Part shown: positions 5,956 to 22,441 of the stretch, piece by piece | Layout: the number at the start of each line of letters is the position of its first letter | How positions within the stretch are numbered: position 1 is the stretch's first letter | Assembly (NCBI GenBank): GCA_000828975.1 | Contig: AP014683.1 | Location: 62,001 to 126,000 of the forward strand | Length of the DNA stretch: 64,000 bases | Direction: 5' to 3' | DNA from: Burkholderiales bacterium GJ-E10 | Lineage (GTDB): Bacteria > Pseudomonadota > Gammaproteobacteria > Burkholderiales > Burkholderiaceae_F | The notes under the pieces: generated by a model | Seen by the model: the letters and a program-made list of their open reading frames with translations, nothing else | Told to the model about the DNA's origin: nothing | Databases searched by the model: none | Program-made: the position numbers and the translations under genes

Positions 5956-8900
5956 AGGTCGTCCTCCGAGTGCGGGTCGACGGGGGGCTTCGCGAGGACC
6001 GTGGCCGATGCAAACCGGTCGCGCAGCGTGTAGCCCTTCACCATGTAGTAGAGCGTCGGCAGGACCAGCAACTCCAGCAGGAAGCTGGTGATCAGCCCGC
6101 AGATCATGGGGAGAGCGAGGTGGCGCATCACGTCCGCGCCGGATCCCTGGACCCAGAGCAGCGGCGCCAGGCCCATCAGCGCTGCAGACACCGTCATGGT
6201 CTTGGGGCGGATGCGGCGAACCGTGCCGGTATGCACTGCTTCGAGCAGATCCGCGCGGCTGTTCAGGCGACCGCCTTCTTGCGCCTGCCGCAGGCTCACA
6301 TCCAGGTACACGAGGAGCACGAGACCCATCTCGGCGCTCAGACCGGCGACCGCGACGATGCCGACCCAGACCGCCACCGACAGTTCGTAGTGCATGAACC
6401 ACAATCCCCAGAACGCACCGACGAGTCCGAACGGCACCGCCAGCAGGACCCCGAGCGTACTGGCGAAATTTCCCGTCGCCAGAACCAGCAGAACCACGAT
6501 CCCCAGCAGCACGAGCGGCACCGCCATCAGAAGGCGTGCATTGGCGGCGCGGATCTGCTCGAACTGGCCGATCCATTCGTAGGTGTACCCGGCCGGCAGC
6601 GCAACCGTCCTTTCGATCGCGGCGTTGGCGCGGCGGACGTAACCGACCAGGTCCGGAACCTGCGTGGTGACGTTGATGTAGTTGACCGTGCGCGTGTCGT
6701 AACTGTCGATCTCCGGCGGGCCGGGGCTATAGCGGATGTCGGCGACCATGCCCAGCGGAATGCTGTTGCCGTCGGGCAAGGTGATCGGAATCTGCCGCAG
6801 GGCATCGGGGTGGTCGCGCAGATCGACCGGGTAACGGAGGTCGATCGGATAGCGCTCCACGCCGAGCACCATCGTTCCGATCCGGCTGCCGCCGATGGCG
6901 GTTTCGATCACGCGCTGCACCGCGCCGACGGTCAAGCCATAGCGTCCGGCCACTTCGCGGTGCACCGTGATGTCGAGATAGTGGCCGCCGAGGGTCTGGT
7001 TGGCGATCGCGCTCAGGGTGCCGCGTACCGGGGTGATGGCGGCGGCGATCTCGTTGGAGAGCGAGCCCAGCACCGACAGGCGAGGCCCGGTCACGCGAAT
7101 GCCGATCAGCGTCTTGCTGCCGCTGTTGACCATGTTGGTCCGATTGGCGATGGGCATGGTCCAGTACGCCGGCAGGCCGGGAAGGTTCAGCGCCTCGCTC
7201 AAGCCCTCGTGGTGGGCGCCGGAGGCGTCGACGTAGCCGTTTTCGAGGTCGGCGACGCCGATCCGGCGCGTATCCGGCCAGAAGGTGTTGCGGAACGGCC
7301 ATTGCGCCCAATGGGGCCAGCGCGCATAGAAGCGTGGGATCGCCACGGCGGGCCATTGGTCGCGTGGCTTCAGGTGGATGATGGTGTCGAGCATGCCGAG
7401 GCCGGCATCGTCCGTTGCCGTGTCCGCCCGGCCGGCCTGGCCGAACACGCTGGCCACTTCGGGAAACCGCTGGATGATCCGGTCGGTTTGCTGCACGATG
7501 GCGCGCGCCTCGGTGATGCCCAACCCGGGATAGGTCGTCGGCATGTATTCGAGATCGCCCTCCCAGAGCGGCGGGGTGAACTGCGTGCCCAGGTGCGACA
7601 GCGGCCAGATGATCGACAGGGTCAGCGCGGCGGCGATGGCGATCGTCGACCACCGGTGGGCGATTGCGAATCGGAAGGCCGGGGCGAACACTGCCTGGAG
7701 CGCGCGGTTGATCGGGTTGCGCTCTTCCGGAACGATGCCTTGTGGAACCGCGAGCATCAGCGTCAGTACGGCGGTGCCGATCGCGGCCGCCCAGCGATGC
7801 CGGGCCAGCAACGCGGAATGTCCGACCAGCACGAAGACCGCCGCGGCGGCCAGCGCCGCGAGCGCCGCGGCCAGCGCGACCTGCAATCGGCGCGGCCATT
7901 GCGCGGGGAACAGGCTGGGGCTGATGAAGTTCATCATCAGCACCGGGATCAGGGTGATGGACACCAGGGCCGCGGCCGCCATGGCGAAGGTGCTGGTCAG
8001 CGCAAGCGGGCTGAACATCCTGCCGCTTTCTCCCGGCAGCACGAAGATCGGCAGGAAGCTGAGCGTGAGGATCAAGAGGCTGAAGAAGAGGCTCGGAACG
8101 ACTTCGGCCGCGGCCTGCAGGATGAGGCTGCCGCGGTCCTGCGGCTTCTCGCCGTTCTGCACGCGTAGCGCCTCCGCGTTGAGATACTGATGGGCGTTTT
8201 CCACCGAGATGATCGCCGAGTCGACCACCACGCCGATCGCGATGGCAATGCCGCTCAAGCTCATGATGTTGGCGCTCACCCCCAGCAGTTTCAGCAGCGC
8301 AAGGCTGATCAGCATGCTCGTCGGAATGACGATGATGGCGATGAGGGCGCTGCGGCCGTGCAGCAGAAACGCGAGGCAGACCAGCGCCACCACGATCATT
8401 TCCTCCGTCAGGGTGTCGGAGAGTGTCGAGATCGCCCGGTCGATCAGGAGCGTGCGGTCATATCCGGTTTCGACGAGCACCCCCGCCGGAAGGCTGGATT
8501 CGATCCGGGCAATCTTCTTCTTGATGGCCTGCACGACCTGGTAGGTGTTGCCCTGGAAGCGGACGACGACGATGCCGCAGGCCGCTTCGCCCAGGCCGCT
8601 CCATTCGCAGATCCCCTGGCGTTGCTCGCCGCCGCGCTGCAGGGTCGCGACGTCGCGCAGCAGAATCGGCGTTCCGTTCCGTTCGCGGCCGACCGGAACG
8701 GCCCCAAGCTCCCGGAGATTCCGCAGGTAGCCGCGGCTACGCACCATGTAGCTCAGTTCGCTCCGCTCGATCACCGATCCGCCGACGTCGTTGTTGGAAT
8801 CGGCGATCGCCGTGCGAATCTGCTCGACCGAAAGGTGATTGGCGCGGATCCGATTTGGGTCGATGATCACCTGGTATTCGCGGACGAAGCCGCCCAGTGG

Positions 8901-19567: not shown

Positions 19568-20533
19568 TCAGGAGGGCAGGAACGGGTCGGCGTGGATCGC
19601 GTCCATCGATGCGCCGGCCAGAAACGCCTCCCGCTTGGCGCCGGCGACGAGATTCGCGTCGCCGCAGAGGAACACGCGCCAGCCGGTGAGATCCTGGTTT
19701 TGCGTCAGCGCAACCTGGACCACGCTGCCCTGGGCGCCTTCCGGCGGTGCCTCTTCGCGCAAGACGCAGGGAACGTACCGCAGGTTGGGGTGTTCGTGCG
19801 CAAGCGGCGCGATGCGATCGGCGCCGTAGAGGCCGTCGCGGCGCAGGGTGCCGTGGTAGAGCCGGATCGGCCCGGTGTGTCCCTGTCGCAGCGCATCGCG
19901 GACGATGCCCAGCAGGGAGCCCAGCCCGGAACCGGTTCCGACCAGCAGGATCGGCTGTTCGGGTTTTCCCGGAACGTAGAAACAGTTCCCGGTGGCCTCG
20001 GAGATCGTCATGGTCTGGCCGAGGTGGGCCGATTCGTGGATCCAGTTGCTGACCTGCCCTTTCGGCACGCGGGTGACGTGCAGCTCGATATCGCGATCGA
20101 GTTCGCATACGCTGGCGAGTGAGTAGCAGCGCGACGTCTGGTCGTCGCGGTACAGGCGCAGGAACTGCCCCGCCCGGTATTCGTAGGGTGCTTCCGGTCG
20201 CAGCCGGATCGACATGACGTCGGGTGTCAGTTCGCCGATTTCGATGACTTCCGCCGGAACGCGGGTGATCGCGTCGTCATCGGTCACGATCTCCATGTCG
20301 CCCGTCGGCCGGCAGACGCAGGCCAGCAGGTAATTGCGCGCGCGCAGCGTCGCCTTCAGTCCCGCCTGCGCCGCTTCGGGAACGTCCCCCGATACCGCGC
20401 GCACCATGCAGGACTGGCAACTGCCGGCGCGGCAGGAGGAACGCATCGGGACGCCGTGAGCCTCCAGTCCCTCGAGGAGGGTCGCTCCGGGCGGGCACTC
20501 ATATGCCCGCCCGCCGACAACGATCGTAGGCAT
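19568..20533 (-). CDS. 2Fe-2S / FAD / NAD(P)H oxidoreductase, probable globin reductase
   Basis: Electron-transfer protein of 321 residues. An N-terminal plant-type ferredoxin domain has C34-X4-C39-X2-C42 and C72. An FAD-binding domain with RCYSLAS near residue 135 and an NAD(P)-binding domain with GTGSGLGSLLG near residue 205 follow. This is the layout of phenol-hydroxylase reductase, CDP-6-deoxyglucoseen reductase and similar enzymes. It starts only 16 bases after the truncated haemoglobin gene on the same strand, so it may be the electron donor for that globin. No oxygenase partner is nearby, which favours this idea, but it is inference. Confidence 0.88.
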   Translation of the reverse strand: MPTIVVGGRAYECPPGATLLEGLEAHGVPMRSSCRAGSCQSCMVRAVSGDVPEAAQAGLKATLRARNYLLACVCRPTGDMEIVTDDDAITRVPAEVIEIGELTPDVMSIRLRPEAPYEYRAGQFLRLYRDDQTSRCYSLASVCELDRDIELHVTRVPKGQVSNWIHESAHLGQTMTISEATGNCFYVPGKPEQPILLVGTGSGLGSLLGIVRDALRQGHTGPIRLYHGTLRRDGLYGADRIAPLAHEHPNLRYVPCVLREEAPPEGAQGSVVQVALTQNQDLTGWRVFLCGDANLVAGAKREAFLAGASMDAIHADPFLPS

Positions 20534-20549
20534 CGTTGCGGACTGCCGC

Positions 20550-20915
20550 TTAGCGACCGAGGATGTCGTTGCGCGTGGTTTCGGCGATCGCCGCCACCTT
20601 CGCGATCAGCTCGGCCGGAACGTTCAGTTCCTTCAGGGTCGCGCCGAGATCTTCGACCACGGCGTCGAAGTGCGAGTCGTTCAAGCCGCGGGCGACCAAG
20701 TGCGCATGTCCCTTGCGCATGTCTTCGCCGGTGTAGTTGTTGGGGCCGCCGAACGCCATCGTGAGGAAGGCCTTCTGCTTGGCCGCTTGACGGTCCATGT
20801 CGACGCCGTCGAAAAACTGCTTAATGCGGTCATCTTTAAGAACCTTGCGATAAAAAATATCGACCGCCGCATTCACCGCCGCTTCGCCGCCCAACTGCTC
20901 GTACAGACTGCTCAT
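20550..20915 (-). CDS. Group I truncated haemoglobin
   Basis: A 121-residue 2-over-2 globin. Expected residues are visible: Y22 (B10 tyrosine), F35 (CD1), and H70 in MRKGHAHL as proximal haem ligand. The lengths and the FGGPNNYTG loop match group I (trHbN/GlbN) proteins, many of which convert NO plus oxygen to nitrate. The ATG at 20915 follows a good ribosome-binding site (GAGGAGA). Upstream, at 21007-21029, is an NsrR-like dyad. A reductase gene follows directly, so globin and reductase probably form one NO-detoxifying unit. Confidence 0.92.
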   Translation of the reverse strand: MSSLYEQLGGEAAVNAAVDIFYRKVLKDDRIKQFFDGVDMDRQAAKQKAFLTMAFGGPNNYTGEDMRKGHAHLVARGLNDSHFDAVVEDLGATLKELNVPAELIAKVAAIAETTRNDILGR

Positions 20916-21006
20916 TCCGTTCTCCTCGTTGAGAGATTTTGGGAACCGGGGAATTCCCGGGGTATGTCGAATTGCGAGTCCTTCGCATTGCCGGTCACAC
21001 CTCCAA

Positions 21007-21029
21007 GAGAGGCATGACGTATGCATCTT
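21007..21029 (-). promoter_or_regulatory. NsrR-like dyad upstream of the truncated haemoglobin
   Basis: On the minus strand the site reads AAGATGCATAC, then G, then TCATGCCTCTC: an 11-1-11 dyad whose left half matches the known NsrR half-site AAGATGCATTT at nine of eleven bases. The right half is less exact. It lies 91 bases before the globin start. NsrR is the NO-sensing repressor of NO-detoxification genes in proteobacteria. Confidence 0.5.
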
Positions 21030-21104
21030 ATTGGGCAAACGAGAATGCGTCAACACCCGGTCGCAGGATTTTTCCCGGCGCTTTTCCGGTGATTCCGGTT
21101 GCCC

Positions 21105-22238
21105 CTATCGATACTGGCGCAGGTACCGGCGTTCGAAGGCCCGTTTGGCCCAATGGAGCGCGCGCATCGGCGGCAGCAGGATGTTGCGCGTCGGACTGCG
21201 GTACACCAGCATGCCCTGGTCGAGCGCGTCGACGATGCAGATCAGTTCCACCCGGAAGCCGGCGTTGGCGGGCGTGCCCTTGCGATCGGCGAGCAGATTC
21301 TGCGCGCACGCGGCGGCCTGGAGGTCCGCCATATGGGCCTGCTTGGGCATCCAGTCGGGCCCGGGGTAGCTGCCGGAATCGCCGACGACGTACACGCGTT
21401 CGTGTCCCGGCACCCGGCAGTGCGCATCCGCCCGGATCAGGCCGCCCGGGGAGCGGGGCAGATCCGTTGCGTCGAACCACGCGTTGCCGGTCATGCCGGG
21501 CATGAAGAGAATCAGGTCGGCGGCGAATGATTCCTTCTCGGTCACCACGCGGTCCGGCTCGAAGCGCAGCATCTTGTTCCCGAGGTGCGTGCGGATGCCG
21601 CGCCGAGCCATTTCGGCAAGCAGTCGGCGGACGGCAGCGGGGCCGAGCCGGTTCCCCGGCTCGTTCGACGGATTGAAGAACACGAGGTCGAATCGATCCC
21701 GTCGTCCTTCGCGGCGGAGCTGGCGATCGATGCCGAAGAGAAACTCGAACATCGGTCCGCCGCGCACGGCGCTCGGCTCGTTCGGGTTCCCGGCGAAGCC
21801 GACCGCGATCGTGCCGCCGGTCATCTCGCGCAGGCGATCACGAATGCGCTCGGCTGCGGCGATGCCTTCGCAGGGGGTGATCGCGTGCTCGATCCCGGGA
21901 AGTTTCTTGAGAAAGCGTCCCCCGGTGGCGATGACGAGCGCCTCGTTCGGCACATCCCCGCCCGTGGTTTCGACGATCCGGCCGCCCTCGCGCAGCCCGG
22001 TCGCCTCGGCCGCGACGAAATCGACCCGCGTGCGCTCCAGGAAGGGCGCGAGTGGGACGATGAGGTCCTCGCGCCGCCGCAGTCCGCTGGGGATCCAGAT
22101 CGTGCCGGGCAGGTAGTGCAGTTCCGCGCGCGGCGCCACCAGCGTGATCGGGACCTGCGGGTCGTGGCGCCGCAGGGCGCGGATCACCGAAAGCCCGGCA
22201 AATCCGGCTCCCAGCACCGCGATACGGGATGGTTTCAT
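21105..22238 (-). CDS. FAD-dependent oxidoreductase, sulfide:quinone oxidoreductase-like
   Basis: A 377-residue flavoprotein with an N-terminal FAD-binding fold (AVLGAGFAGLSVIRAL), an internal VIATGG motif near residue 105, a central GGPMFEFLFGIDRQL segment typical of SQR and flavocytochrome-c-like proteins, and a C-terminal VYVVGDSG FAD motif. Such enzymes usually oxidise sulfide and reduce quinone at the membrane; others are type II NADH dehydrogenases. Substrate cannot be fixed here. ATG at 22238 is chosen; a GTG at 22250 is also possible. It lies on the same strand upstream of the globin gene, but the 189-base gap with its own regulatory dyad suggests separate transcription. Confidence 0.8.
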   Translation of the reverse strand: MKPSRIAVLGAGFAGLSVIRALRRHDPQVPITLVAPRAELHYLPGTIWIPSGLRRREDLIVPLAPFLERTRVDFVAAEATGLREGGRIVETTGGDVPNEALVIATGGRFLKKLPGIEHAITPCEGIAAAERIRDRLREMTGGTIAVGFAGNPNEPSAVRGGPMFEFLFGIDRQLRREGRRDRFDLVFFNPSNEPGNRLGPAAVRRLLAEMARRGIRTHLGNKMLRFEPDRVVTEKESFAADLILFMPGMTGNAWFDATDLPRSPGGLIRADAHCRVPGHERVYVVGDSGSYPGPDWMPKQAHMADLQAAACAQNLLADRKGTPANAGFRVELICIVDALDQGMLVYRSPTRNILLPPMRALHWAKRAFERRYLRQYR

Positions 22239-22441
22239 CTTGGCATGCACTCCGGTTGGCCATTGGGGAAATTCGCGACAGAGGAAACCTTACTCCGGGC
22301 GGCGCGATGCGGCGTGATGTCGCGTGATGCCGGATTGACCGGGATCTGTGCGGCGGCGCGCCGGTGCGCCGCTGGCGAACCACTACAATCCGCCGGTTGC
22401 CGTTGCCACTTTCGTCGTCGCCACTTCCCAGGCACCCCGCC

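Follow-up and report, generated by a model that had tools for sequence, protein, structure and literature searches.

A truncated globin and ferredoxin-type flavoreductase operon under a predicted NsrR operator as a probable two-protein counterpart of flavohaemoglobin

The stretch of DNA analyzed here (64,000 nucleotides, hereafter the window) carries on its minus strand a compact two-gene operon, in which the gene of a small haem protein is followed by that of an iron-sulfur flavoreductase. The features of the locus are listed below.

19568..20533, minus strand: reductase gene, 321 aa, with a 2Fe-2S ferredoxin domain followed by FAD and NAD(P)H domains (Fer2, FAD_binding_6, NAD_binding_1)
20534..20549, minus strand: intercistronic gap of 16 nt in the two-gene operon (from the sequence)
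20550..20915, minus strand: glbN-like gene of a group I truncated haemoglobin (PF01152, 1.6e-18; Synechocystis GlbN, E 9e-39)
21007..21029, minus strand: predicted NsrR-type operator, AAGATGCAT-ACGTC-ATGCCTCTC (pattern scans; largely kept in the relatives L039-L041)
21025..21030, minus strand: -10 element TAAGAT, overlapped by the operator (sequence; layout of relatives)
21048..21053, minus strand: -35 element TTGACG (sequence; layout of relatives)

The globin reading frame starts with the ATG at 20915, has a stop codon ending at 20550 and encodes 121 residues. The closest solved relative is the Synechocystis cyanoglobin GlbN (E 9e-39, ~62% identity), and this best match together with the PF01152 assignment makes the protein a cyanoglobin-type member of group I. 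The haem pocket contains Tyr22 (B10), Gln43 (E7), Lys46 (E10), Gln47 (E11), and His70 (F8), five residues that are the same in all 96 orthologues compared. The TyrB10/GlnE7/GlnE11 combination is the one known from group I globins that stabilise bound O2. In the alignment with Synechocystis GlbN, Lys46 falls on His46, a position that may ligate the haem iron; Chlamydomonas THB1 has a lysine as its distal ligand (PMC11904497 and references therein). By analogy with THB1, LysE10 of the window globin is a predicted ligand of the resting haem iron.

The reductase combines a 2Fe-2S ferredoxin domain of plant type with domains that bind FAD and NAD, and is the proposed electron donor to the globin. 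Its closest solved chain is 5ogx, a cytochrome P450 reductase, with carbazole and benzoate dioxygenase reductases also among the best matches; the C-terminal two thirds resemble the reductase domain of flavohaemoglobin (Hmp). All 83 linked reductases compared have the cluster cysteines 34, 39, 42, and 72, and they also retain the motifs for FAD and NAD(P)H (R-x-Y-S, GTGxG, CG). The 16-nt gap to the globin gene is shared by the three nearest relatives (L039-L041), and elsewhere gaps are mostly 5 to 32 nt. Like Hmp, the locus combines a haem globin with an FAD/NAD(P)H reductase, Hmp being NsrR-controlled and serving NO detoxification. However, Hmp is one chain with a 3-over-3 globin (PF00042) and no 2Fe-2S domain, whereas the window pair is encoded by two separate reading frames, its globin is of the 2-over-2 truncated kind and matches PF01152 only, and its reductase has the extra ferredoxin domain. 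Immediately upstream, in the same orientation, is a gene for a sulfide:quinone-oxidoreductase-like flavoprotein (21105-22250). It was considered as a part of the operon, but stands beside the globin only in L039-L041 among 80 named relatives and is thus regarded as a mere neighbor.

A close examination of the upstream region identified, on the minus strand, the dyad AAGATGCATACGTCATGCCTCTC at 21029-21007. One of its halves is the exact NsrR half-site AAGATGCAT and the other, CATGCCTCTC, is weaker; relative to the published NsrR consensus gATGyAT-N5-ATrCATc (PMC1274295) the window operator has one mismatch. When AAGATGCAT-N5-ATGCNTCTT was scanned with up to three mismatches, the dyad was the sole match in the 64 kb (shuffles: mean 0.06). 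The promoter reads TTGACG-N17-TAAGAT, and the dyad begins one base inside the -10 box. A preliminary description of this DNA had noted the group I truncated globin, the 2Fe-2S/FAD/NAD(P)H reductase 16 bases behind it (gap 20549-20534) and the NsrR-like dyad upstream, and all three are confirmed by the domain matches and the pattern scan; the overlap with the -10 box was absent from it. In L039-L041, whose globins are 99-100% identical to that of the window, the -35 element, spacer and -10 element are nearly unchanged, and G and A alternate at the R of ATRC in the right half-site, as the consensus allows, with CCTCT retained. The layout extends to more distant relatives. In the 68 loci with both globin and reductase, the best site to the consensus was taken from the 300 nt preceding the globin match, and 43 of them have an NsrR palindrome with at most two mismatches, against ~0.5 expected from dinucleotide shuffles. 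Of the 52 sites having up to three mismatches, 48 show a -35 box, counted at four or more of six positions, 16 to 18 nt ahead of the TAAGAT of the operator, compared with 13% for random positions. The operator is therefore fixed on the -10 box, which is the layout that would be expected of a repressor.

The window genome is a single contig of 3.28 Mb, estimated to be 100% complete, and encodes two Rrf2-family proteins. One is IscR, which exceeds one of the two cut-offs defined for that family; the other is an NsrR-like protein, whose best NCBIfam match is NsrR at 141.5 bits, below the cut-off of 182, with RirA close behind at 126.2. A search of the whole genome with AAGATGCAT-N5-ATGCATCTT, up to three mismatches, returned two places only, the glbN operon and a site that precedes the nsrR-like gene by ~150 nt; a control pattern returned none. 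The nsrR-like gene lies apart from the globin operon and retains an NsrR-like site of its own. This second site (L038, ~6727-6749; G000:C1:2811726-2811748) comes with promoter-like hexamers TTGCAA-N17-TAAGAT directed away from nsrR, as if an ancestral arrangement with nsrR and glbN divergent had left them behind; remains of a globin gene were not found at this place.

Relatives were collected by a protein-profile scan of GTDB species genomes, which gave at least 556 confirmed cases, and the best 80 of these were examined as named loci. They come from Gallionella, Sideroxydans, Ferrovum, Methylomonas, Methylobacter, Methylococcus, Crenothrix, Chromatiales and similar organisms, and the module is found across beta-, gamma-, and alphaproteobacteria, with Methylococcus capsulatus, Methylomonas lenta, and Ferrovum myxofaciens among the named isolates that carry the pair. 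Co-occurrence of both genes, which the preliminary description had put forward as a check, is borne out, since the reductase lies directly downstream of the globin in 68 of these best 80; three of the 12 remaining loci reach a contig end. A divergent nsrR-like gene is directly beside the globin in 45 of the 80 and in 11 of 16 same-order relatives (orthologues at 74% identity or higher, with the next match at ~39%), and 15 of these 16 same-order loci have the reductase. In Methylocystis the pair is found on plasmids, with 4-5 nt between the genes, which shows it able to travel as a unit. The globins are 75-88% conserved; for the linked reductases the figure falls to 32-54% beyond the nearest clade, so that conservation is not tight on the reductase side. 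A globin-reductase fusion was also sought as direct proof of partnership, but no fused form occurs among the 68 linked loci.

Ferrovum-like lineages (for example L060, L062, L067, L070, L079, L087) keep globin and reductase with a gap of ~70-106 nt, and neither a nearby nsrR nor an NsrR operator was seen in them. This suggests a different regulation, and NO control is therefore not universal.

No PF00042 globin was found in the complete window genome, with E. coli and B. subtilis controls positive, and the genome hence has no Hmp. Prismane/Hcp also gave no match there, again with positive controls, NnrS gave none either in this genome or in the control genomes, and the PF00115 matches obtained in the search for NorB include an apparent cbb3-type oxidase subunit and short partial matches. 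The absence of hmp from genomes with the globin, the second check put forward, also holds more widely. In 370 class-level genomes, with the globin called at E 1e-25 or better and flavohaemoglobin by frame length, which is a proxy only, 66 have the globin, 31 have a flavohaemoglobin-length PF00042 frame and the two never coincide (expected 5.5; hypergeometric P 0.0017). The corresponding numbers in 200 order-level genomes are 16, 30, and 0 (expected 2.4; P 0.066), both P values ignoring shared ancestry and being inflated by relatedness. Some families and one genus hold both kinds, in different species. That full-length Hmp is missing where the globin is present suggests that its function has been replaced.

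Long PF00042 frames behave differently, as the globin is also present in 21 of the 37 genomes with them, far above expectation. We considered these long proteins as a possible partner, but two of them (L119, 387-3677; L120, 1129-3900) are read as globin-coupled chemotaxis sensors of ~900-1100 aa, with PAS-like repeats, MCP-type C-termini and che-type genes alongside. Their co-occurrence with the truncated globin is probably a lineage or lifestyle effect.

The comparison across genomes, that is, operon linkage, absence of Hmp, and the presence of nsrR and its operator, supports the proposal of the preliminary description that the pair is a two-protein equivalent of flavohaemoglobin. We give a probability of roughly 0.77 to the reading that this operon encodes an NsrR-repressed, two-protein NO dioxygenase equivalent to Hmp. 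In the proposed mechanism, the ferrous haem of the globin would bind O2 and turn NO into nitrate, leaving ferric haem, which the reductase would reduce again with electrons from NAD(P)H passed through FAD and the 2Fe-2S cluster; LysE10 on the resting haem iron would ease this electron transfer. When NO is absent, the Fe-S repressor NsrR, encoded elsewhere in the genome, would occupy the operator over the -10 box and block transcription, and NO would damage its cluster and thereby release the repressor.

NsrR control says only that NO is the signal, and many carriers are iron oxidisers or methanotrophs, which can live at low oxygen. The pair could accordingly be NO-inducible with another chemistry, either the reduction of NO, nitrite or hydroxylamine at low oxygen or the reduction of peroxide or peroxynitrite. 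The pocket of O2-stabilising group I type and the missing full-length Hmp in globin carriers, with the functional replacement this suggests, make such a chemistry unlikely in our judgment, even though a truncated haemoglobin of Roseobacter denitrificans is reported to have peroxidase activity (PMC4319818). It is also conceivable that the globin serves as an O2 store or as an O2 carrier, for instance to methane monooxygenase or terminal oxidases, with the reductase only keeping it ferrous and NsrR control reflecting hypoxia or denitrification. This would suit the many methanotrophs among the carriers, and truncated haemoglobins of groups II and III have been proposed as O2 carriers to methane monooxygenase (PMC11102522). 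However, the module is equally common in relatives of Gallionella, Sideroxydans, and Ferrovum, which are iron oxidisers and not methanotrophs, and a storage role predicts neither the nsrR linkage nor the complementarity with Hmp, so we find it quite improbable. That the reductase serves an oxygenase elsewhere and sits beside the globin by chance is very hard to credit, despite its best solved relatives being oxygenase reductases, in view of the linkage in 68 of the best 80 of at least 556 relatives, the short gaps, the plasmid-borne pair and the other Fer2-type reductase loci that the genome has of its own.

The two-protein NO dioxygenase has a close published precedent. Rodionov et al. (2005, PMC1274295) described Legionella pneumophila as having no hmp and glbN-lpg2536, a cyanoglobin and a hypothetical ferredoxin reductase, as its sole NsrR target, and suggested NO oxidation like that of Hmp; Gardner (2012, PMC3820574) repeated the proposal. 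As judged from the published description, the window operon is alike in its cyanoglobin-type truncated globin, in the co-directional ferredoxin-reductase-type gene adjoining it 16 nt downstream, in the genome lacking hmp, in the proposed NO oxidation, and in the predicted NsrR operator upstream with an nsrR-like gene in the genome, although one half-site is imperfect and the NsrR score is below cut-off. The Legionella proposal concerned one genome and came with no experiment, whereas the module described here is widespread and usually has nsrR divergent alongside. Full-text search of the open literature, with subscription journals outside its scope, found only the 2005 paper on lpg2536 and no experimental test of the electron transfer, NO dioxygenation or NsrR binding proposed here. 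Given that precedent, the hypothesis is probably right but not new. What is new here is the breadth of the module, the conserved layout of promoter and operator, the invariant LysE10, and the distribution complementary to that of Hmp.

Chlamydomonas THB1 likewise belongs to the group I truncated globins and has Lys at E10, is tied to NO and nitrogen metabolism, and needs an external reductase, for which nitrate reductase has been proposed; it differs in being algal, in having no known dedicated reductase gene in an operon and in its control. Mycobacterium trHbN (GlbN) is a group I truncated globin with NO dioxygenase activity, but is further away in sequence (E 1e-18, compared with 9e-39 for the cyanoglobin), and we know of no dedicated reductase linked to it. 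The cgb-COG0543-COG0446 operon of Acidithiobacillus ferrooxidans (PMC1274295) also has separate globin and reductase genes and an NO-responsive regulator, but its globin is a single-domain one of Campylobacter type and the regulator is DNR.

Globins in general can dioxygenate NO in vitro, but a reductase decides whether this also happens in cells. As Smagghe et al. (2008, PMC2323109) pointed out, no hexacoordinate haemoglobin had an assigned cognate reductase, and finding such reductases was the needed step. The operon offers a specific globin and reductase pair with conserved NO control in named isolates, which makes the question of the cognate reductase directly testable. A broader claim, to which we would give even odds, is that many iron-oxidising and methanotrophic proteobacteria have, as their standard substitute for Hmp, a hexacoordinate, Lys-ligated truncated globin together with a genetically linked 2Fe-2S reductase of its own, that this would be the first gene-linked cognate reductase for a truncated globin of hexacoordinate type, and that some lineages add membrane-anchored two- and three-domain versions of this globin.

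Other forms of the globin were also seen in related genomes. In a single-domain paralogue (L016; G152:C17 69438-72794), a stretch resembling a membrane anchor, MENSLPFLILFSPFLFLALTI..., comes in frame ahead of the globin, and no reductase gene lies alongside. Relatives with two domains (271-287 aa) and even three (398 aa) are encoded in L121 (1985-3181), L122 (2422-3285), L123 (2137-2964), and L124 (2568-3383); these chains have an N-terminal hydrophobic or amphipathic stretch and are without an adjacent reductase. Such multi-domain frames occur in ~10 of the 66 globin-bearing class-level genomes, and the one in L122 has an NsrR-like site with one mismatch close upstream.
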